In this document: piece after piece, positions 35,760 to 46,292 of the stretch
How positions within the stretch are numbered: position 1 is the stretch's first letter
Layout: each line of letters begins with the position of its first letter
From: Thermanaerovibrio velox DSM 12556
GTDB taxonomy: Bacteria; Synergistota; Synergistia; Synergistales; Synergistaceae
DNA length: 64,000 nt
Reading direction: 5' to 3'
NCBI RefSeq assembly: GCF_000237825.1
Contig: NZ_CM001377.1
Location: forward strand, 868,001 to 932,000
Position numbers and translations under genes: made by a program
Notes under the pieces: generated by a model
The model's database searches: none
Seen by the model: only the letters and a program-made list of their open reading frames with translations
What the model was told of the DNA's origin: nothing

Positions 35760-37103
35760 TTGTTTAAAAGGATATCTACCTCCGCCGCTCATGGCGATCC
35801 AGATTTGTTGGTGGGTCTCGACTTGGGGACCACCAAGGTGTCTGTCGTTGTTGCCGAGCGGGAGAGCCGGACGGGGGAGGCTCAGATAATAGGGATAGGC
35901 CATGCCCCTTCCAGTGGGATTCGAAAGGGATTAATAGTCAACCTTGATCAAGCAGTTCGATCGGTGCAAAGCGCGATTTGCGATGCTGAGAACATGGTAG
36001 GCCTTGAGTTAAAGGAGGTCACCGTGGCATTCAGCGGGAGCGAGGTAAAAAGCATAAGGTCCAAGGGCATGGTTTCATTGGGTAGATCCCCGAGGCCTGT
36101 CATGCAGCTTGATGTAGAGCGAGTTATCGAGGCCGCACAAACGGAGGTATCCGTTCCGCAGAATCAGAGTATTCTCCATGCCATACCGGTAGAGTATTTT
36201 CTTGATGGCCATGGTGGTATTGACGATCCCTCGGGAATGACCGGGATGAGGCTAGAGATAGATCTTCAGTCCGTCATAGTTCCAACCGCAGTGTTGCAGA
36301 ATGTTCTTAACTGTGTAGAGAGGGCGGGGCTTGAGGTTAACGGCTTGGTTATAAAGCCGTTGGCGTCAGCCTTGGGAATGCTTTCCAAGGAGGAATCCAT
36401 GGCTGGGGCTGTGGCTGTGGACGTGGGGGGCGGTACAACGGGGGTTGCGGTCTTCTCCGACGGGCGTCCCAAGCATTTGGCGGTCATACCAGTTGGAGGA
36501 GATCACATCACTAACGACGTGGCCTCGGTGTTGAAGATGCCATTAAGCAAGGCAGAGGAGATAAAGAAAGAAGTATCCCTTTTCGAGGGAGCGGAGTCTG
36601 CAGAGGATGTTCTAGAGTTTGATGTTAGGGGCAGGAGCTACTCATGTAGGGTCGTTGATGTGGTGGAAGTTATCCGATGCAGGCTTGAGGAACTATACTC
36701 TGTCCTGATAAGGAGGGAGATATCGGACCTCAGCCCATCAATGATGTCTGCTGGGGTAGTCATGTGTGGAGGCGTTGCAAAGACTTCCGACATAGAGGTG
36801 TTAGTTAGCGAGCTCCTTGACATGCCTGCTAGGGTTTCCTTGCCCTTAGATCATGACAGGATGCCTCCCAGTAGGAACGGTGTGGAGTTCGTGTCTGCCG
36901 CAGGAATAATTAGATATATGATAGAGAGGGAGCGCAATCCATTCCGGTTCATGGAGCCTCACTTGGATTCCATAAGACGACAAGGTCATGGACGGGGTAT
37001 CATGGAGGAGCCGCGTCCTAGGGTTAATCCTAGGGTTTCCTCCGGAGGAGGATTGGGTGATCTTTGGGAGAAGATACGGAGATATGTGGATGAGCTTTTT
37101 TAA
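35760..37103 (+). CDS. ftsA: cell division protein FtsA
   Basis: The 447-residue actin-like protein tethers FtsZ to the membrane. LLVGLDLGTTKVSVVVAE is phosphate loop 1, AVDVGGGTTGVAVFSDG is phosphate loop 2, and VVMCGGVAKTSDIEVL the adenosine motif. The C-terminus LGDLWEKIRRYVDELF is the amphipathic membrane-targeting helix. The TTG start follows a ggggggg SD. A 55-base AT-rich gap separates it from ftsQ. Confidence 0.96.
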   Translation: MFKRISTSAAHGDPDLLVGLDLGTTKVSVVVAERESRTGEAQIIGIGHAPSSGIRKGLIVNLDQAVRSVQSAICDAENMVGLELKEVTVAFSGSEVKSIRSKGMVSLGRSPRPVMQLDVERVIEAAQTEVSVPQNQSILHAIPVEYFLDGHGGIDDPSGMTGMRLEIDLQSVIVPTAVLQNVLNCVERAGLEVNGLVIKPLASALGMLSKEESMAGAVAVDVGGGTTGVAVFSDGRPKHLAVIPVGGDHITNDVASVLKMPLSKAEEIKKEVSLFEGAESAEDVLEFDVRGRSYSCRVVDVVEVIRCRLEELYSVLIRREISDLSPSMMSAGVVMCGGVAKTSDIEVLVSELLDMPARVSLPLDHDRMPPSRNGVEFVSAAGIIRYMIERERNPFRFMEPHLDSIRRQGHGRGIMEEPRPRVNPRVSSGGGLGDLWEKIRRYVDELF

Positions 37104-37174
37104 TCCTTTAGCTCGCTTGTAGTGTATTACCGCCGAAGGTGGCCATATTGAAATGCTTAGGGGGATTTGCAGAC

Positions 37175-38371
37175 ATGGCGGAGCTTCTTCAGATAGACCG
37201 GTCTGGTAGAGCCTACAGGGAAGTTATAAAAGTGGTTGGGGTAGGCGGTGGTGGAAACAACGCCTTGAATCACATAATAAGGAGCGGGATAAAGGGAGTT
37301 GAGTTTATATCCGCTAACACTGACGTGGCTCATATGGAGCTCTCAGAAGCGGACGTCAAAATAATCCTTGGCAAGGAGTTGACTAGGGGCCTGGGGGCAG
37401 GAGCTAATCCCGAGATAGGTCAGAAAGCCGCACTTGAGTCCAGGGATGAGATCAGGGCCGCCATAGAGGGTGCGGATATGGTCTTTATAACCGCCGGCAT
37501 GGGGGGGGGTACCGGTACTGGGGCTTCTCCTGTGATAGCCAACATAGCCAGGGAGAGCGGAGCCTTGGTCGTGGCAGTGGTGACAAAGCCCTTCATGTTT
37601 GAGGGTAAGCGTAGGATAAGCCAGGCATTGGGTGGGATAGAGCGTCTAAAGGAACAGGTGGATGCCCTAATAGTGATACCTAATGACAGGTTGCTCCAGT
37701 TGGCCGATAAGAAGACCGCCCTCACTGAAGCCTTTAAGCTGGCGGATGAAGTGCTTCGCCAGGCGGTTGACGGGGTCACCAGTTTGATATTAAAACCGGG
37801 GCTTGTCAACGTTGACTTTGCGGACCTTAAAACTGTCATGAGCAACGCCGGATCTGCAATAATGGGAATAGGTGAGGCTCAAGGTGAGAACCGCGCTGCC
37901 GTTGCCGCGAGAAACGCGATAAACAGCCCGCTTATGGAGGCCCCAATAAAGGGTGCCAAGGGAGTGCTGTTTAATGTCATAGGCGGTACCAGTGTCACTC
38001 TTCATGAGGCTTTGGAGGTTTCTGAGGTCATAAGGGAGTTCACCGATGATGATGCGCAGATAATATGGGGTGCCGTCCTGGAGCCTAGCTTAGAGGATAA
38101 ACTCCAGGTGATAGCCATTGCCACGGGTTTCTCTCAGATGGCCCCTAATGAGTCTAAGGTCTCGAGCTTTACAGGAGCAGCAAAACCATCCAGCCAATCC
38201 AAAGGAATGTGGGCCCCCGATAAGTTAAAGGCCAAGGCTCAACTCGAGGAGACCGAGGTCCGCCCGATGGGGCATCCCTCGGGAGCTGAGGAGGATTTGT
38301 TCAGGGGTAGTGGTGTCCCTACCGATGACCTGGATCTTCCGGCTTTTAAGCGCAGGAGGGGGCATCTTTAA
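37175..38371 (+). CDS. ftsZ: cell division GTPase FtsZ
   Basis: The 398-residue tubulin homologue forms the Z-ring. [10 protein letters not shown] is the N-terminal loop and GGGTGTG, at residues 110-116, is the tubulin signature. [11 protein letters not shown] (T7 region) and a variable linker of about 50 residues follow. The C-terminal peptide [14 protein letters not shown] binds FtsA. The ATG at 37175 has ggggga ten bases upstream; a GTG at 37139 would add 12 residues. Confidence 0.97.
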
Positions 38372-38399
38372 CACTTAGGAAGGAAGAAGAGGGAAGCTT

Positions 38400-39926
38400 T
38401 TGGGTAAAAAAGATTCTAAAAAAAGTGCTTCCCGGAGCGGAGACAGTGGTTCCTGCTGGGGTAGCTGGTCTTCGTTTCGGGAGGCTGAGGTTTGGACTCA
38501 GGAGCTTCCCAAGGGCGGGGCTCCACGTTGGGCTTTGCTTTACCCTGGAGAGTATGGTATTGGAAGTGCCAGCTTGGGTTTTCATCACGTTTATAGAAGG
38601 CTGCGTAGAATGGGGGTTGGGGTTGAGAGGTTTTTCATAGGCCCCGGCCCTGTTTATCGTTCCGTTGATTCGGATGTTCACCTTCGTAATTTCCCCATTG
38701 TGACCGCTACCATATCCTATGAAAACGAAGTCTTATCGTTTACCCGATGGCTTGAGGAGGGGGCAATCCCGCCCTTAAGGGCAGACAGGAGGGATCCCTT
38801 TCTGCCAATTGTAGGTGCTGGTGGGGCATTGACCTACATTAACCCGTTTGCGTTATACCAGATTTGTGACTTTATCGTGCTAGGTGACGCAGAGGTTTCG
38901 TTACAACAGGTGGTCAACGTCCTTCGCGAAAGCCATAGTAAGGATGATGCCCTTAAAGAACTTGCATCCCTCCCGTACGTTCTGGTCCCATCTCTTCTTG
39001 ATCTTCACCGCCCCCAAGGAGTCGGTAAGATCTCTGAACTAAGTCAAGAGGATTCTATAAGTTCTTGGGTCACCAAGAAGAGTCTTTTCGAATCTTCACT
39101 CCTTTTGGAGTTACAGAGGGGATGTAGACGGGCCTGCAGGTTTTGCACGTTAACTTATTGTTTTTCGCCGATGCGGCGCCTTCCTCTCCATGATGCTAAA
39201 TTTTTGATAGACCACATAAAATCCAAGGTTCCATTCGAAAGGGTGGGGTTGATAACTCCGGAGGCAGGGGATTACCCAGAGATAAGGCCATTGATAGAAA
39301 CAATCCTTGCCCTTGGTAAGGGCATCTCCTTTGCCTCCCTTCGACTGGACTCTATGGACAGTTTTATGATAAAAGCATTAAAGTATAGTGGTGGTAAATC
39401 TATAACCCTGGCTCCCGAGGCAGGGACGTTCAGGCTTAGGTCTCTATGTGGAAAGATTTTTACCGATGATATGATAATGGAAAAGGCAGCGATGGCTGCT
39501 TCATCGGGCATATCAAAAGTGAAGCTATATTTCATGATTGGTCTTCCAGGCGAGACAGATGATGACTTGAGCGGCATAGGGGAGCTTTGTGGAAGCATAA
39601 TCTCTAAGACAGGGCTCAGCGTTGTGGCATCGGTAAATGCATTTGTCCCCAAGCCGTTAACTCCATGGTGGGAAGCGGATTTTTTAGATAAGAAGGAATA
39701 TGATCGCAGGGTAGCGCTTATAAAAAAGACATCTATTGCCTTTTGTGGCAGGAGAAAGCTAGAGCTTAGGTTTAATGGCTATAGGGAGGCCGCCATCGAG
39801 AACCGCCTGGCTTGGTCATTACCAGAGGGACCATTAATAACGCAGGAAGATCTAGACGCTAGTGTAGGCAAAAAGAAGCAAGTCCTAAGAATGCTTGCCG
39901 AGATAGGGATTGCTAGCCCTGTTTAG
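38400..39926 (+). CDS. radical SAM protein with B12-binding-like N-terminal domain
   Basis: A 508-residue protein. The N-terminal part (about 30-210) resembles the cobalamin-binding-like domain that precedes many radical SAM enzymes (YPGEYGIGSASLGFHHVY; AGGALTYINPF; VLGDAE). The radical SAM core starts with LELQRGCRRACRFCTLTY, a CxxxCxxC cluster, and continues with PEAGDYPEI and APEAGTFRLR. This architecture is common in TIGR03960-like proteins of unknown substrate. It lies right after ftsZ in the same direction (28-base gap). The TTG start is not well supported by an SD. Confidence 0.8.
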   Translation: MGKKDSKKSASRSGDSGSCWGSWSSFREAEVWTQELPKGGAPRWALLYPGEYGIGSASLGFHHVYRRLRRMGVGVERFFIGPGPVYRSVDSDVHLRNFPIVTATISYENEVLSFTRWLEEGAIPPLRADRRDPFLPIVGAGGALTYINPFALYQICDFIVLGDAEVSLQQVVNVLRESHSKDDALKELASLPYVLVPSLLDLHRPQGVGKISELSQEDSISSWVTKKSLFESSLLLELQRGCRRACRFCTLTYCFSPMRRLPLHDAKFLIDHIKSKVPFERVGLITPEAGDYPEIRPLIETILALGKGISFASLRLDSMDSFMIKALKYSGGKSITLAPEAGTFRLRSLCGKIFTDDMIMEKAAMAASSGISKVKLYFMIGLPGETDDDLSGIGELCGSIISKTGLSVVASVNAFVPKPLTPWWEADFLDKKEYDRRVALIKKTSIAFCGRRKLELRFNGYREAAIENRLAWSLPEGPLITQEDLDASVGKKKQVLRMLAEIGIASPV

Positions 39927-39959
39927 CCTTTTTATCTTTTGCGGATGGGGGATGATAAA

Positions 39960-40871
39960 GTGGGATACCGGCTTACTAGAAACTACAAAAAGCGAAATCA
40001 AGGTGGGTTGGCCACAAAGATAGTGATAGCTTTTACCGCTTTAGTTGCACTTGGAATATTGATTTCTGGGGTGAAATACTTTGCAACTCAGTGGTTACCT
40101 AGCGATAACTACCAGTCCGATCAACGGTATGAACAGGAAGTTCCACCCCAGGTAGACCTTAATGGTGACTTATCAACCAAAGGTAATGAATCGCGGGGCT
40201 ATGATGAAGGGGTACAAAATCTCGCTACCCCACTGCCCAATGTTGCAAAAGCCAAACCTTCTAGTTCCGTGTCGTCGCCGGTAAGTACGGAATCAAGCTC
40301 TAAGTCAAATTATGACAAGGTTAAGGGCAAGCCTAAAGCGTCAACCGCCATTCAGCTGGCTTCACCGGTGGAAGAGACATCCAAAACCCAGCTGAAAACA
40401 CCCCCTAAAGCTAAAGTATCGCCAACTTCGTCAGAGGAAAAGGCTAAAGAAGAAAAAGCAAAAAAGGAAAAGAATACGTCTCAAGAGAGAACTCAAGAAG
40501 GCAGCCCTAAGGCATCTGAGCCTACTAAAACATTACCATCTAAATCTTCACCTAAGGAGAGCACAAGCACGACCGAAAGGGCTGGTGGTTCTGGTTCGTC
40601 CGGTCATAGCCAGAAGGAAGGTTCCAACAATACTTTTATGGTTCAGGTGGGGGCTTTCTCATCGTTAGACGGAGCTAAGGCGCTCCTGGAAAAATTGAAG
40701 AAAGACGGGGTGGAAGCCACGTTGCAGGAGGCCAGCGTATCGGATAAAAAGTTCTTCCGGGTAAGGGTTCCTGTGGAGGGGGACCGTTCAAAGGCGGACG
40801 AGGAGGCCTCCAGGCTTGCGAAGATGGGCTATCCTACTCAGGTTATACCGCCTAAGGGGGAGACAAAATAA
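39960..40871 (+). CDS. SPOR-domain membrane protein
   Basis: A roughly 303-residue bitopic protein. A basic N-terminus and one membrane helix (about 20-38) precede a 170-residue low-complexity linker rich in Ser, Lys, Thr and Pro. The C-terminal SPOR domain (TFMVQVGAFSSLDGAKALLE to QVIPPKG, last ~75 residues) binds denuded septal glycan. It probably sits at the division site, like FtsN-type proteins, which fits its place after ftsZ. A GTG at 39960 has ggggga upstream; a TTG/ATG pair at 39939-39945 is an alternative. The linker region is more AT-rich than its neighbours. Confidence 0.82.
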   Translation: MGYRLTRNYKKRNQGGLATKIVIAFTALVALGILISGVKYFATQWLPSDNYQSDQRYEQEVPPQVDLNGDLSTKGNESRGYDEGVQNLATPLPNVAKAKPSSSVSSPVSTESSSKSNYDKVKGKPKASTAIQLASPVEETSKTQLKTPPKAKVSPTSSEEKAKEEKAKKEKNTSQERTQEGSPKASEPTKTLPSKSSPKESTSTTERAGGSGSSGHSQKEGSNNTFMVQVGAFSSLDGAKALLEKLKKDGVEATLQEASVSDKKFFRVRVPVEGDRSKADEEASRLAKMGYPTQVIPPKGETK

Positions 40872-42091
40872 TGTGCCCCATAGGTTCGCTAATGGATAGG
40901 CAAGACGCAGTGCATGCCATGGTAAGTGCAGCTAAACTTGAGGTCCCGGTTGAAGATGTACCGCTTGGAAAATCTACTAATCGAATACTAGGTTGTGATG
41001 TCCGTTGTAAGTTGGATCTGCCCCCTTTTGATAGGAGCCTTAGAGACGGTTATGCGGTAAGGTCCGATGACCTTATGGGGGCATCCTCCGGGTCGCCTTC
41101 CTTCCTTAACGTGGTGGGTGAGGTGCCTGTTGGTGGGGTTCCAGACTTCAAGATCCCTCAACAGGGAGCAGCGGTTATACATACCGGGGGTATGCTGCCA
41201 GATGGTGCGGACTGTGTGGCGATGCTAGAAGACACGTCATTGGTTGGTTCCATTCTGGAAGTTCGCAGGGCCCTCCAGAGGGGTGAAAACGTGGTGTTCA
41301 AGGGGGAGGAGGCCCCTGCTGGTTCTGTCGTGCTTGGGAGGGGGACGCTGCTCTCTGAAGCCCACGTGGGGCTCCTCGCTTCTCAGGGTATCAAGGATGT
41401 CCCGTGTCTTGGGTTAAGGTCTTGTGTGTTTAGTAGCGGTGATGAGATAAAACCAGTTGGAGAGGCAATTCCATACGGTATGCTTTATGATGTAAACGGA
41501 TGGTTTATCTGTTCAGCCTTGAGCCGCATAGGCATCGAATCTTCTTACGGTGGGATACTCGAGGACAGAGCCGTTAACATAAGGGAAAAGATCCGAGATG
41601 CCATGGAATGGGCTCATGTGATCATCATTAGTGGAGGATCCTCGATAAGCGTAAGAGATCACTTGGAAGAGGTATTTTCAACGTTTGATCATCCTGGTTT
41701 GATAGTTAGAGGCATCAACGTTCAGCCTGGCAAACCACTGTTGGGAGCGGTAACTGGATCTCCTGCACGAGTAGTCCTTGGCCTGCCGGGACATCCCTTG
41801 TCCTGTGCAACGTCTTTTTACACCTTTGTTACTCCTATGCTTGAAATGATGTTTGGGGGCAGCGGATGGAACGTGAAAACCCTGAAGATCTCCCTTGCTG
41901 AGGATTTACCAGCCAGGTCTGGGATTGAGGAGTTCGTCCCCGGTAAGATATGTGATGATGGTGTTGTACCTATTTTTTCAGCCTCCAGTTACAGCGGTGT
42001 CCTTGCAAATTGTGACGGTCTCATAAGGGTTCCTAAGGACAGGGAGACCCTTCGTAGAAGGGAGACGGTTGACCTTTGGATGATTCGATGA
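40871..42091 (+). CDS. moeA: molybdopterin molybdotransferase MoeA
   Basis: A 406-residue enzyme that inserts molybdate into adenylated molybdopterin. PFDRSLRDGYAV is the N-terminal dimer/active-site segment and VVLGLPGHPLSCATSFYTFV the conserved C-terminal block; SGGSSISVRDHL lies between. The ATG overlaps the upstream stop (TAATG), and gggggag lies eight bases upstream. It is followed by a second, fused MoeA. Confidence 0.93.
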   Translation: MCPIGSLMDRQDAVHAMVSAAKLEVPVEDVPLGKSTNRILGCDVRCKLDLPPFDRSLRDGYAVRSDDLMGASSGSPSFLNVVGEVPVGGVPDFKIPQQGAAVIHTGGMLPDGADCVAMLEDTSLVGSILEVRRALQRGENVVFKGEEAPAGSVVLGRGTLLSEAHVGLLASQGIKDVPCLGLRSCVFSSGDEIKPVGEAIPYGMLYDVNGWFICSALSRIGIESSYGGILEDRAVNIREKIRDAMEWAHVIIISGGSSISVRDHLEEVFSTFDHPGLIVRGINVQPGKPLLGAVTGSPARVVLGLPGHPLSCATSFYTFVTPMLEMMFGGSGWNVKTLKISLAEDLPARSGIEEFVPGKICDDGVVPIFSASSYSGVLANCDGLIRVPKDRETLRRRETVDLWMIR

Positions 42092-43974
42092 GGAGCAGGG
42101 AGCATATATCAAGAGAGGAAGCTTTGATGATGTTAATGGCCCATTTCTCCCCTATGGGGGTGAAAAAGGTGCCTACCCGTTCATCGGTTGGATTGATACT
42201 GGGGGAAAACGTCTTTGCCCGCTTGAACATACCCAATTCCGTGGTTTCTGCGGTGGACGGATATGCGGTGCTTTCGGAATCTACCGCCAACGCTAGCCCA
42301 CAAAGGCCTGTGGTACTTGAAAAACAAGGGTATGTTTGGGTCAATACCGGATCCATGGTGCCACCGCCTTTTGATTCCGTGGTAATGGTGGAGGATGTCT
42401 CCCGCTGGGATGATGGGACCGTGGTGGTTTATAGGGCGTCACCCAAGGGGCAGAACCTTAGATACCTTGGGGAAGATGTGATGTCTAACCAGCTTTTGGC
42501 CTTTGAGGGAGATCAGATAACTCCTCAGCTGGCCTCCCTTCTAATAAGCGCTGGTGTTTTGGAGTTAAAAGCTATACCAAAGCCGAGGATATTATTTATA
42601 CCCACAGGGGAAGAGATAGTAGGCGATGATGCGTTAATTAATGGCATTATGAAACCAGGTGATGTTCTAGAGAGCAACTCAATATTGGTTACCGGGTATC
42701 TTGAAAGATGCGGCTACCGAGTGGATGTTCACAGCTCTATCCTGTCCGATAACGTTGATGAGCTTAGAGGTGTGCTTAAAAGGGCCGTAATGGATGATTA
42801 TCATGTGATATTGATATCTGGTGGTTCCGCTAAGGGCCTAAGAGATGTGTCGGCGGAGGCCCTAAAGGATGGGCTTCTGTTCCGTTGGCTGCTTATGAAG
42901 CCTGGGCGACCTGCCATAGGGGCTTCCTTTGATGGATGTCCGGTCATTGTGTTGCCAGGGTTCCCCTCATCCTCATTAGTAGTGCTTCTCACTGTCGTAG
43001 TGCCTTTCCTTAATCATCTGTCCGGCAAGCCGCCGATGACCTACTTTGAGTCCCTTGACATTGAACCTTGGGAGACCCAGTTACTTCATCGCATGTCCTC
43101 ATCTCCGGGCATGGAGGAGTGGGTCAAGGCTAAGGTGGTGAAGATGGGGGATCAAGCCTTGCTTTGGCCCCTTGGCGGCGGTTCAAGTTCCTTGTTCTCC
43201 CTTGGGGAGGCAGACGGATTGGCTTGCATACCAAGTAGTTCCGTTGAGCTTGATAAGGGAGATAAGGTACGGTTCTATCCGCTCGTTCATCTCGACCTCG
43301 CCAGGCGTTGCCTATTACAGGGGTCTGATGATCCGGCCCTGCAAATGCTTGCTGCGATTGCTAAGGGAAAGGGCGGAGAAGTTGTGGTTAAGAGGACTGG
43401 TAGCATGGGAGGGGTATTGGCCCTCGCAAGAGGGGAGGCTCATGCCGCTACCTGTCACATTTTGGACCCTGACACTGGTATTTACAACGATCCGCTGATA
43501 AAGAGACTTGACCCCCACGGGTTGTGGTGTAGAACGATACTTTTCTATCGGGAGCAAGGGTTTATTCTGGCAAGGGGCAATCCTAGGGGTGTGAAGGGCA
43601 TCAGAGATCTGGTTAGAGATGACATAAGGATAGTTAACAGGCAGCCTGGTGCTGGGACCAGGATACTTCTTGACCATCTCCTTGAGAAGGATGGCATCTC
43701 GAGGGACGGAGTCAAGGGATATAACGATCTTTGTGTCTCTCACTTGGATGCTGCTGCCAGAGTCCTTGCAGGTGCTGCTGATGTGGCTTTGGGGGTGAAA
43801 AGTGCGGCTGATGCTCTGGGATTGGATTTCATCCCCATAGCGGAGGAGCCGTATGAACTGGTGTATCATTCGGCCTATTTGGATCATCCTGGGATAATGG
43901 CGCTTATGGAGGCTGCGTTGGATCCCAAGTGGCGTTCGATTGTTGATAGAATGGGGGGGTATAGGTGGCCCTGA
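42076..43974 (+). CDS. MoeA fused to a C-terminal periplasmic-binding-protein-like domain
   Basis: A 632-residue two-part protein. Residues about 10-405 are a second MoeA paralogue (NIPNSVVSAVDGYAV, SGGSAKGLRDVSAE, LPGFPSSSLVVLL). From about residue 412 it becomes a PBP/LysR-substrate-binding-like domain (GSDDPALQMLAAI, GSMGGVLALARGEAHAA, IVNRQPGAGTRILLD, LGVKSAADALGLDFIPI). Fusions of this kind occur in anaerobes and archaea, and the binding domain may sense or hand over molybdate or tungstate; that role is inference. No signal peptide is present, so the domain is cytoplasmic. It overlaps moeA by 16 bases; an ATG at 42088 overlapping the moeA stop is an alternative start. Confidence 0.85.
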   Translation: MDDSMRSREHISREEALMMLMAHFSPMGVKKVPTRSSVGLILGENVFARLNIPNSVVSAVDGYAVLSESTANASPQRPVVLEKQGYVWVNTGSMVPPPFDSVVMVEDVSRWDDGTVVVYRASPKGQNLRYLGEDVMSNQLLAFEGDQITPQLASLLISAGVLELKAIPKPRILFIPTGEEIVGDDALINGIMKPGDVLESNSILVTGYLERCGYRVDVHSSILSDNVDELRGVLKRAVMDDYHVILISGGSAKGLRDVSAEALKDGLLFRWLLMKPGRPAIGASFDGCPVIVLPGFPSSSLVVLLTVVVPFLNHLSGKPPMTYFESLDIEPWETQLLHRMSSSPGMEEWVKAKVVKMGDQALLWPLGGGSSSLFSLGEADGLACIPSSSVELDKGDKVRFYPLVHLDLARRCLLQGSDDPALQMLAAIAKGKGGEVVVKRTGSMGGVLALARGEAHAATCHILDPDTGIYNDPLIKRLDPHGLWCRTILFYREQGFILARGNPRGVKGIRDLVRDDIRIVNRQPGAGTRILLDHLLEKDGISRDGVKGYNDLCVSHLDAAARVLAGAADVALGVKSAADALGLDFIPIAEEPYELVYHSAYLDHPGIMALMEAALDPKWRSIVDRMGGYRWP

Positions 43975-44936
43975 CGGATAGTTATCTTAGAAACATAAAC
44001 TACGTAAGGATCTCTGTGACCGATAGGTGTAATTTTCGCTGCCGCTACTGTATGCCGGAGGATGGGGTCCCGCTTTTGGATCACAGGGACATAATGTCTT
44101 ATGAGGAGCTCGCGTTATTATGTCAGGCTCTCCAGGACCTTGGGGTAAAAAAGATTCGCTTTACGGGAGGAGAGCCTCTGGTGAGACGGGGCTTTCTGGA
44201 TTTTCTCTCCTCTCTGAAAGGTCTTCTGCCCAATCTCAAGATAGCCCTTACAACAAATGGGGCTATGTTGGGCCAGGAGGCACAAAGAATAGCTGAGATT
44301 GGCATATCGGGGCTGAACGTGAGCTTAGATACCATAGATCCAGAGAAATTTCGCTACATCACGAGAAACGGGGATCTCCAAGGGGTTTTGAACGGCATGA
44401 GGATGGTTCGGGATCTCGGTCTTAGGTCTATAAAAGTTAATACGGTGCTCATAAGGTCCTTTAACGACATGGAGGTACCGGCCCTTTTGGATTTCTGTGC
44501 CAAGAATGACTATCTTTTGCGTTTAATAGAGTTCATGCCCCTTGACGATGGACTTTGGAGCAAGGATAGCTTCATATCCGCCGATGAAATCCTCGGGAGG
44601 GTTTCATCTGGTTATCGTTGGGTTCCATCCTCAACCGGCGAAGAGGTAATGGGTCCCGCCAAATACTATCGTGATCTGGAAACTGGTCAGAGGATTGGGA
44701 TAATCTCTTCCGTGTCCAGCCATTTCTGTTCCCATTGTAATAGGGTTAGGATCAGCGCATCCGGCAGGCTGAGGGCTTGTTTGTTTGCCAGGGAAGAAAC
44801 GGACCTCAGACCCTTCCTTTTGAAAGGGGATTTTGAGGGCCTCAAGGATATTATAGTCAAGGCGGTAAGTGCAAAACCCCGTTGTTGGGAGGACGTTATA
44901 ACCGGAGACCTCCACATGTCTCAGATAGGAGGATGA
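43965..44936 (+). CDS. moaA: GTP 3',8-cyclase MoaA
   Basis: A 323-residue radical SAM enzyme of the first molybdopterin step. C22, C26 and C29 (TDRCNFRCRYC) bind the SAM cluster. FCSHCNRVRISASGRLRACLF (given here in part) carries the second, GTP-binding cluster. The C-terminus ends in GG, the activating Gly-Gly tail. FTGGEPLVRRG is also present. The GTG start overlaps the previous gene by ten bases. Confidence 0.96.
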   Translation: MALTDSYLRNINYVRISVTDRCNFRCRYCMPEDGVPLLDHRDIMSYEELALLCQALQDLGVKKIRFTGGEPLVRRGFLDFLSSLKGLLPNLKIALTTNGAMLGQEAQRIAEIGISGLNVSLDTIDPEKFRYITRNGDLQGVLNGMRMVRDLGLRSIKVNTVLIRSFNDMEVPALLDFCAKNDYLLRLIEFMPLDDGLWSKDSFISADEILGRVSSGYRWVPSSTGEEVMGPAKYYRDLETGQRIGIISSVSSHFCSHCNRVRISASGRLRACLFAREETDLRPFLLKGDFEGLKDIIVKAVSAKPRCWEDVITGDLHMSQIGG

Positions 44937-44946
44937 GAACATCGTC

Positions 44947-45456
44947 ATGAGCTCATTTACCCACCTGGATGAATACGGAAGACCTCAGATGGTAGACGTA
45001 GGAGGCAAAGGTCCTAGCGTAAGGAAGGCATGGGCGGAAGCTAGGATATGCCTTACCGATGTCATCGTTAAAGCCTTGTTGGAGGGTGGTGTTCCTAAGG
45101 GTGAGCCTTTCACTGTTGCTGAACTGGCGGGGATAATGGGGGCCAAGCAGACCCCATATCTTATTCCCCTTTGTCACCCAATAAAGATAGACGGCGTGTC
45201 CGTCCGCTGCACGCTGGATGAAGAGGCTAAAGAGGTGATTGTTACAGGTGTCGTCTCTGCCAGTGATGTGACTGGAGTGGAAATGGAAGCTCTTATGTCG
45301 GTTAGCGTAGCGGCCCTGGCTTTTTACGATATGTGCAAGGCCTTGGACAAGGGCATGGAGATTAGATCTATAAGGCTTTTGAGAAAAACTGGGGGGAAGA
45401 GCGGGGATTGGACTTCCCCGTCGGTTCCCCAGGAGAGGCTGGGTGATCTCAAGTGA
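44947..45456 (+). CDS. moaC: cyclic pyranopterin monophosphate synthase MoaC
   Basis: This 169-residue enzyme acts after MoaA. MVDVGGK near the N-terminus, LIPLCHPIKIDGV, and VTGVEMEALMSVSVAALAFYDM (in part) with KALDK match the family. The catalytic lysine and aspartate lie in the KALDKGM segment region. Its end overlaps the mogA-like gene by four bases. Confidence 0.95.
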   Translation: MSSFTHLDEYGRPQMVDVGGKGPSVRKAWAEARICLTDVIVKALLEGGVPKGEPFTVAELAGIMGAKQTPYLIPLCHPIKIDGVSVRCTLDEEAKEVIVTGVVSASDVTGVEMEALMSVSVAALAFYDMCKALDKGMEIRSIRLLRKTGGKSGDWTSPSVPQERLGDLK

Positions 45457-46292
45457 ATTCAAGGCTGATTAGGATATGCTGGAACTTGGCAGAGGATCTT
45501 CCCATGGCCTACATACACATGGGCAGTTCAGGGGATGCCCTATGTAACGGTGAGCCGTCAAAAATAACGCTTGCCTTCCCCGGTGAACCCTTGGACTTTG
45601 ACAAGGGGGAAGAATCGGGAGGATTAAAACTAAACCCTCTCCATCTGGTCGTGTCTGGGCTTAATAGGGATTCTATCAAATCAAGGGTTTTTGTGGCTTT
45701 TGGCGATGGCGGAGCTGTTCTTAGGTTGGGAGAGGGGAAGAGGTTAGAGGTAGTATCCCCTGGATTCATCGCGGTTTCTCAGAGATTTAAGCTGTGGGAG
45801 CCTATAACAACAGGGGTGCTTACCATAAGTGATAAAGGAGCAAGAGGTGAGAGGGAGGATACCGCTGGTCCTGCTTTGGCGGAAAGGGCTCTGTGTATAG
45901 GAGCTGAGGTCATAAAAAGGGACGTTGTCCCTGATGACGTGGAGATGATAAGGGATAAAGTGTTGAACTGGGGCAGGGAAGGTATCGAACTGATACTTTG
46001 CACAGGTGGTACCGGCTTATCTCCCCGGGACGTGACCCCTGATGCGATCATGGGAATCGCGGATAAATTGGTTCCTGGTTTTGGGGAGATGATGAGGATA
46101 AAAACCAGCCATGCAAACCCGAGGTCCTTCCTGTCTAGGGGCATTGGGGCATTGGTGGGCAAAACACTGGTCTTGACGTTCCCAGGGAGCAGAAGAGGGG
46201 CTCTGGAGTGCTTTGAAGCTGTAGAAGAAGGTATAAGGCATGGGGTTGAGATAGCCAATGGCAGGGCCATGGAGTGCGGTAATCACGGCTGA
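45453..46292 (+). CDS. mogA: MogA/MoaB-type molybdopterin adenylyltransferase with an unrecognised N-terminal domain
   Basis: A 279-residue protein. The C-terminal ~160 residues are a MogA domain that adenylates molybdopterin: LTISDKGARGEREDTAGP, LILCTGGTGLSPRDVTPDA and HANPRSFLSRGIGALVGKTL (part). The first ~115 residues are extra. They are beta-rich in appearance and contain VFVAFGDGGAVLRLGEGKRLEVV; I do not recognise a MOSC or other named domain. The GTG start overlaps the moaC stop (GTGA). An internal ATG at 45504 has an agagga SD but would only shorten the extra domain. Confidence 0.85.
   Translation: MNSRLIRICWNLAEDLPMAYIHMGSSGDALCNGEPSKITLAFPGEPLDFDKGEESGGLKLNPLHLVVSGLNRDSIKSRVFVAFGDGGAVLRLGEGKRLEVVSPGFIAVSQRFKLWEPITTGVLTISDKGARGEREDTAGPALAERALCIGAEVIKRDVVPDDVEMIRDKVLNWGREGIELILCTGGTGLSPRDVTPDAIMGIADKLVPGFGEMMRIKTSHANPRSFLSRGIGALVGKTLVLTFPGSRRGALECFEAVEEGIRHGVEIANGRAMECGNHG

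Follow-up and report, generated by a model that had tools for sequence, protein, structure and literature searches.

The window, the 64-kb stretch of DNA analysed here, belongs to a Synergistota genome, that of Thermanaerovibrio velox, represented by a single contig of 1.88 Mb. It contains a run of genes in one orientation in the order ftsA, ftsZ, a radical SAM gene, an FtsN-like SPOR gene, moeA, moeA-PBP, moaA, moaC and a mogA-like gene, of which ftsA and ftsZ were identified by reading their open reading frames. The cofactor genes, and the two parts of the fused protein, are located as follows:

40871..42091, + strand: plain MoeA, the tandem partner, 406 aa, with Pfam matches to MoeA_N, MoCF_biosynth and MoeA_C only
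42088..43974, + strand: MoeA-PBP fusion, 628 aa counted from the ATG (Pfam and NCBIfam matches, AlphaFold2 model)
42088..43290, + strand: MoeA part of the fusion, residues 1-401 (Pfam, model, Foldseek)
43291..43971, + strand: PBP-like C-terminal domain of the fusion, residues 402-628, with the PF12727 core at about 428-609 (Pfam, model, Foldseek)
43965..44936, + strand: moaA (GTP 3',8-cyclase), TIGR02666 above cut-off
44947..45456, + strand: moaC, TIGR00581 above cut-off
45453..46292, + strand: mogA/moaB-like MPT adenylyltransferase with an N-terminal extension of about 115 aa, PF00994 at residues 121-257 only

The coding regions of the plain and fused moeA genes overlap by 4 bases in what appears to be a single operon. 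The initial annotation had placed the fusion at 42076-43974, starting from a TTG codon; the open reading frame itself holds, but ATG 42088 is the likely start, as it produces the 4-base overlap with the stop codon of the upstream gene and as the homologue alignments begin there. The N-terminal 115 or so residues of the mogA-like protein have no Pfam match, and an extension of similar length is present in Synergistota relatives at the same position. The Moco/Wco genes sit behind ftsA, ftsZ and the FtsN-like SPOR gene (35760-40871) in the same orientation, a gene order that recalls Glp, the MoeA-like protein that binds FtsZ in Actinobacteria. An Rfam scan of the window between 34 and 50 kb returned no riboswitch or Moco/Tuco RNA match near the operon, and promoter- and terminator-like sites near it were in no excess over shuffled sequence.

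The fused open reading frame specifies, in order, MoeA_N, MoCF_biosynth, MoeA_C and PF12727 PBP_like, all four of which exceed their Pfam cut-offs, the last with an E value of 3.6e-59 and 199.6 bits against a cut-off of 27. The Pfam domain order in the two open reading frames confirms the original reading of the locus as a MoeA fused to a C-terminal PBP-like domain beside a plain MoeA. An AlphaFold2 model of the full-length fusion, based on 46 homologues, has a mean pLDDT of 93.2, and the C-terminal domain alone (residues 402-628), for which structure prediction had been proposed at the outset, was modelled with confidence (pLDDT 95.4). Foldseek analysis of the MoeA part retrieved gephyrin E, Cnx1E and E. 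coli MoeA at E values of 1e-33 to 1e-30. Both Pfam and Foldseek bear out the resemblance of the C-terminal domain to periplasmic and LysR-type binding domains that had been noticed by eye; the domain, described at that stage as being without a signal peptide, is indeed cytoplasmic by context, an N-terminal signal not being expected in a protein whose N-terminus is occupied by MoeA. The fusion also matches positions 7-636 of the 647-position NCBIfam profile NF011068 (PRK14498) at E 1e-144; its 483 bits fall below the curated cut-off of 534, so that it is not filed as an NF011068 equivalog, and this cut-off is passed in 27 of 188 Synergistota genomes.

MoeA-PBP fusions were found in 89 of the 188 Synergistota genomes, while a wider scan of Bacteria and Archaea established 580 confirmed stretches encoding relatives, the best 80 of which, from Clostridia, Desulfobacterota, Nitrospirota, Chloroflexota, other bacteria and one archaeon, carry the fusion without exception (80/80). 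Given this recurrence in both sets, the fusion is genuine, and neither a chance event nor an assembly artefact. Among these best 80 of 580 loci a plain moeA lies within 4 kb of the fusion in at least 62, the tungstate receptor TupA in at least 12 and the tungsten enzyme AFOR in at least 9, all three counts being lower bounds as contig ends interrupt many of the loci. One Lachnospiraceae locus (L131:3869-7803) has two consecutive MoeA-PBP fusions adjoining moeA and TupA. At least two MoeA_N genes are present in 87 of the 89 Synergistota fusion genomes, the other two being a 77%-complete bin and a genome where one gene was matched only in part. Some fusion genomes have a third MoeA, of the kind otherwise found alone in fusion-less genomes; the Synergistota genomes G155, G156, G157, G161, G163 and G106 combine the tandem pair with extra solo-type MoeAs, mostly near DMSOR-type genes. 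A tree built from 35 fused and 32 plain rows has a single branch (SH-aLRT 99) that divides fused from plain MoeA, the MoeA part of the window's fusion grouping with other fused proteins and apart from plain MoeA, and the window's plain MoeA falling in the same clade as the tandem plain copies of other Synergistota. This division indicates, at the level of sequence, that the two genes of the window are an old paralogue pair rather than the product of a local duplication.

The occurrence of the fusion closely follows that of AFOR: 83 of the 188 Synergistota genomes have both, 90 have neither, 6 have the fusion only and 9 have AFOR only (173/188 in agreement). When just the MoeA-bearing genomes are considered, AFOR is present in 83 of 89 with the fusion as compared to 2 of 20 without. 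Phylogeny entered these counts solely through collapse to genera, after which fusion and AFOR are both present in 42 MoeA-bearing Synergistota genera and both absent from 7, the fusion occurring without AFOR in 1 and AFOR without the fusion in 0 (49/50 in agreement, p 8e-8); for MoeA-bearing genomes of at least 95% completeness the numbers for both, neither and fusion alone are 45, 9 and 1. The exceptions are almost all incomplete bins. One of the two fusion-less, MoeA-bearing genomes with AFOR is G009, which also has TupA and where the plain copy is accompanied by a fused-type MoeA that amounts to no more than a 223-aa frame, split or truncated (L148 / G009:C5:401254-402938). TupA was detected in 69 of 89 fusion genomes as compared to 6 of 99 others, and the proposed tie of the domain to tungsten metabolism is therefore upheld by its co-occurrence with both AFOR and TupA, which are together absent from three fusion genomes, all drafts. 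Mo enzymes of the XDH type, too, are found more often with the fusion (73/89) than without it (41/99), and a molybdenum role is accordingly conceivable. ModA was tried as a discriminator and does not separate fusion genomes (59/89) from plain-only genomes (17/20). Besides TupABC and ModABC, the T. velox genome has one DMSOR-type enzyme and matches to AFOR (three) and to XDH-type enzymes (five), and from this gene complement it probably uses both metals. Flanking its ModABC cluster (L046:3630-7986, at about 222.6-227.0 kb) are a DUF364 protein, with a putative role in heavy-metal chelation, and a protein with a MoCF domain.

Four motifs of the PBP-like domain contain residues that are invariant over 46 fusions:

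43321..43332, + strand: GSDD motif, with G412, S413 and D415 invariant
43399..43413, + strand: GSMGG motif, with G438 and S439 invariant
43456..43467, + strand: HILD motif, with H457 invariant
43636..43662, + strand: NRQPGAGTR motif, with N517, R518, Q519, G521, G523, T524 and R525 invariant

N498 and H552 are likewise invariant in these 46 sequences. Together these residues recall small-anion receptors, and it is by this analogy only that the ligand would be an anion. The top Foldseek matches of the domain are the phosphate receptors 1twy, 4gd5 (with bound phosphate) and 4q8r, along with PEB3, including its phospholactate complex, and LysR effector domains, with a molybdenum-transporter receptor at rank 19; sequence profiles match AcfC, PEB3 and the 1twy phosphate receptor, with a weaker match to the sulfate receptor 1sbp. 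Such matches speak for a domain whose ligand bears phosphate (MPT-AMP, AMP or another organophosphate), or whose role lies in regulation or protein contact, in place of binding free tungstate or molybdate. We regard this as unlikely, albeit deserving of some weight, as the genomic context is linked to tungsten and as in published models the PBP domain sits above the active site of MoeA, with the groove continuous (PMC11733289). Tungstate is a plausible ligand, favoured by genomic context and not by evidence from the pocket, and binding of either tungstate or molybdate by the domain is plausible. A direct relationship in sequence between the domain and TupA or ModA was considered and rejected, as profile similarity is weak: the TupA family alignment matched at E 0.054 with a probability of 1%, and ModA over 70 C-terminal columns only with a probability of 5.4%. 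The other PF12727 matches of the T. velox genome were discounted as MoeA-type receptors, since, judged from their open reading frames, the one at 106 kb resembles PstS and the one at 1643 kb a chemotaxis-type protein ending in a PBP-like part. The literature yielded no ligand-binding report for a PF12727 domain of the MoeA-fused type.

The two MoeA proteins of the window differ at the metal site, at the following positions identified by alignment:

42898..42909, + strand: KPGR motif of the fusion, residues 271-274, at the metal site, R274 corresponding to E. coli K282
41723..41725, + strand: Q285 of the plain MoeA, which replaces E. coli K279
41939..41941, + strand: P357 of the plain MoeA, which replaces E. 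coli R350

The fused copy carries a complete oxyanion site, in that D59, D142, E188, D228, D259, K279, S303 and S371 of E. coli MoeA are kept and R350 is conservatively replaced by K. The plain copy, by contrast, is missing basic residues of that site and, with D142E, K279Q and R350P, does not have the full residue set of the E. coli catalytic site. All sampled Synergistota tandem plain copies have D142E and R350P and none has kept K279 (one has R); solo MoeA copies mostly keep K279 and R350. Across phyla, the E. coli R350 position is R or K in 93 of 98 fused proteins as compared to R in 25 of 59 tandem plain copies. The Q and P of the window's plain copy need not abolish function, since both also occur at the corresponding positions of its best solved relative, P. 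horikoshii MoeA (1uz5). From alignment and general knowledge we take E. coli K279 and R350 to be the counterparts of Cnx1E K294 and R369. These two Cnx1E residues act in initial molybdate binding (PMC13262936). The KPG[K/R] position is R in 26 of 26 sampled Synergistota-type fusions, and K in 59 of 59 tandem plain copies and 63 of 72 other fusions; in M. extorquens MoeA1 the corresponding Arg291 shifts the preference towards tungsten (PMC13197769), while another study expects Cnx1E K297R to be neutral.

The initial annotation had suggested separate molybdenum and tungsten branches for the two paralogues. The MoeA1-PBP architecture, the contiguous pair and the idea of a tungsten-related, channelling function had been published previously by Megrian et al. 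in 2025, who from TupA co-occurrence assigned W to MoeA1 and Mo to MoeA2 (PMC11733289). A division in which the fused copy makes the tungsten cofactor and the plain copy the molybdenum cofactor, each alone, would agree with the KPGR arginine of the Synergistota fused proteins and with the presence of both ModABC and TupABC in the T. velox genome. In D. vulgaris Hildenborough, however, mutants lacking the fused gene (DVU0951) and those lacking the plain one (DVU2990) show the same chlorate resistance as mutants without the W-dependent Aor, the two genes have a cofitness of 0.85, and the authors reject a Mo/W split in that organism (PMC10102598). As both MoeA types are needed there for W-Aor, an assignment of one copy to each metal is not supported, and these genetics contradict the Megrian assignment for at least one organism. 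Further points against it are the near-constant co-occurrence of the fused and plain copies, the absence of K279 and R350 equivalents from the tandem plain copy, and the position of molybdenum genes, which adjoin solo MoeAs instead: among the matches listed, ModA or DMSOR-type genes occur no further than 8 kb from at least 15 of 25 solo or extra MoeAs as compared to 0 of 91 fusions, both counts being lower bounds. A split by metal thus appears rather improbable, somewhat more so than the phosphate-bearing ligand considered above. That the genes arose by a simple recent duplication, the extra domain being decorative and the two copies redundant, as their adjacency and common orientation might suggest, is very improbable given that fused and plain MoeAs fall into two deep groups kept together across phyla, that the PBP motifs are invariant over 46 sequences and that the Desulfovibrio genes are non-redundant (PMC10102598).

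The reading we prefer, albeit with belief and doubt evenly balanced, is that MoeA1-PBP and the plain MoeA constitute one non-redundant cofactor-assembly unit, chiefly for tungsten, in which the fused copy is an insertase with an oxyanion-capturing PBP domain. Cytoplasmic tungstate and/or molybdate would most likely be captured by the C-terminal PBP-like domain and, we infer, be handed to the insertase site of the fused MoeA. The fused and adjacent plain MoeA would form a single unit for the tungsten cofactor of AFOR-type enzymes, as opposed to alternative Mo and W enzymes, and the pair presumably also serves molybdenum enzymes where there is no third MoeA, as in the T. velox genome. The plain copy may act at a different step, for instance in the handling or hydrolysis of MPT-AMP, or may serve as partner in a hetero-dimer. 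More tentatively, and as clearly less likely than the cofactor-assembly unit as just described, we consider that the tandem pair may be a tungsten insertase with two obligate components, possibly a hetero-dimer: the fused subunit alone would keep the oxyanion site and would be supplied with tungstate by its own receptor domain, the plain subunit having been repurposed for some other step and a solo third MoeA serving molybdenum where present.

The architecture is real, conserved and already described, and the T. velox genome provides a further member; beyond the initial annotation, comparison of sequences and gene content suggests that the two paralogues function jointly. The comparative data turn the question of which copy handles which metal into that of what each member of the pair does for tungsten, for which R274 of the fused copy, Q285 and P357 of the plain copy and the 227-residue PBP-like domain are the sites to be tested, and they bear on why many anaerobes keep two MoeAs and on how tungsten rather than molybdenum enters the same pterin. 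The locus shares with the published MoeA1-PBP/MoeA2 system a MoeA with a C-terminal PBP-like domain and no signal peptide, a contiguous plain MoeA and an association with TupA (PMC11733289); the W/Mo split was inferred in that study, in whose main text the string 'Synergist' is absent, whereas the present data and those from D. vulgaris argue that both copies serve tungsten. DVU0951 (MoeA with PF12727) and DVU2990 (MoeA-2) are similarly a fused and a plain MoeA on both of which W-Aor function depends (PMC10102598), but are non-adjacent by locus tag in D. vulgaris, while their counterparts overlap in the T. velox window. M. extorquens MoeA1 resembles the fused copy in having arginine as the last residue of KPG[K/R] at the metal site (its R291, equivalent to R274), yet it has Ala312 where the S of the E. 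coli 303 position is kept here (PMC13197769). TupA, finally, has the same type II PBP fold, its VGTG and SRGDxSGT aligning with VGSMGG and NRQxGxGTR in a weak profile comparison; it is an exported protein with ABC partners of its own, whereas the PBP domain described here is cytoplasmic by context.
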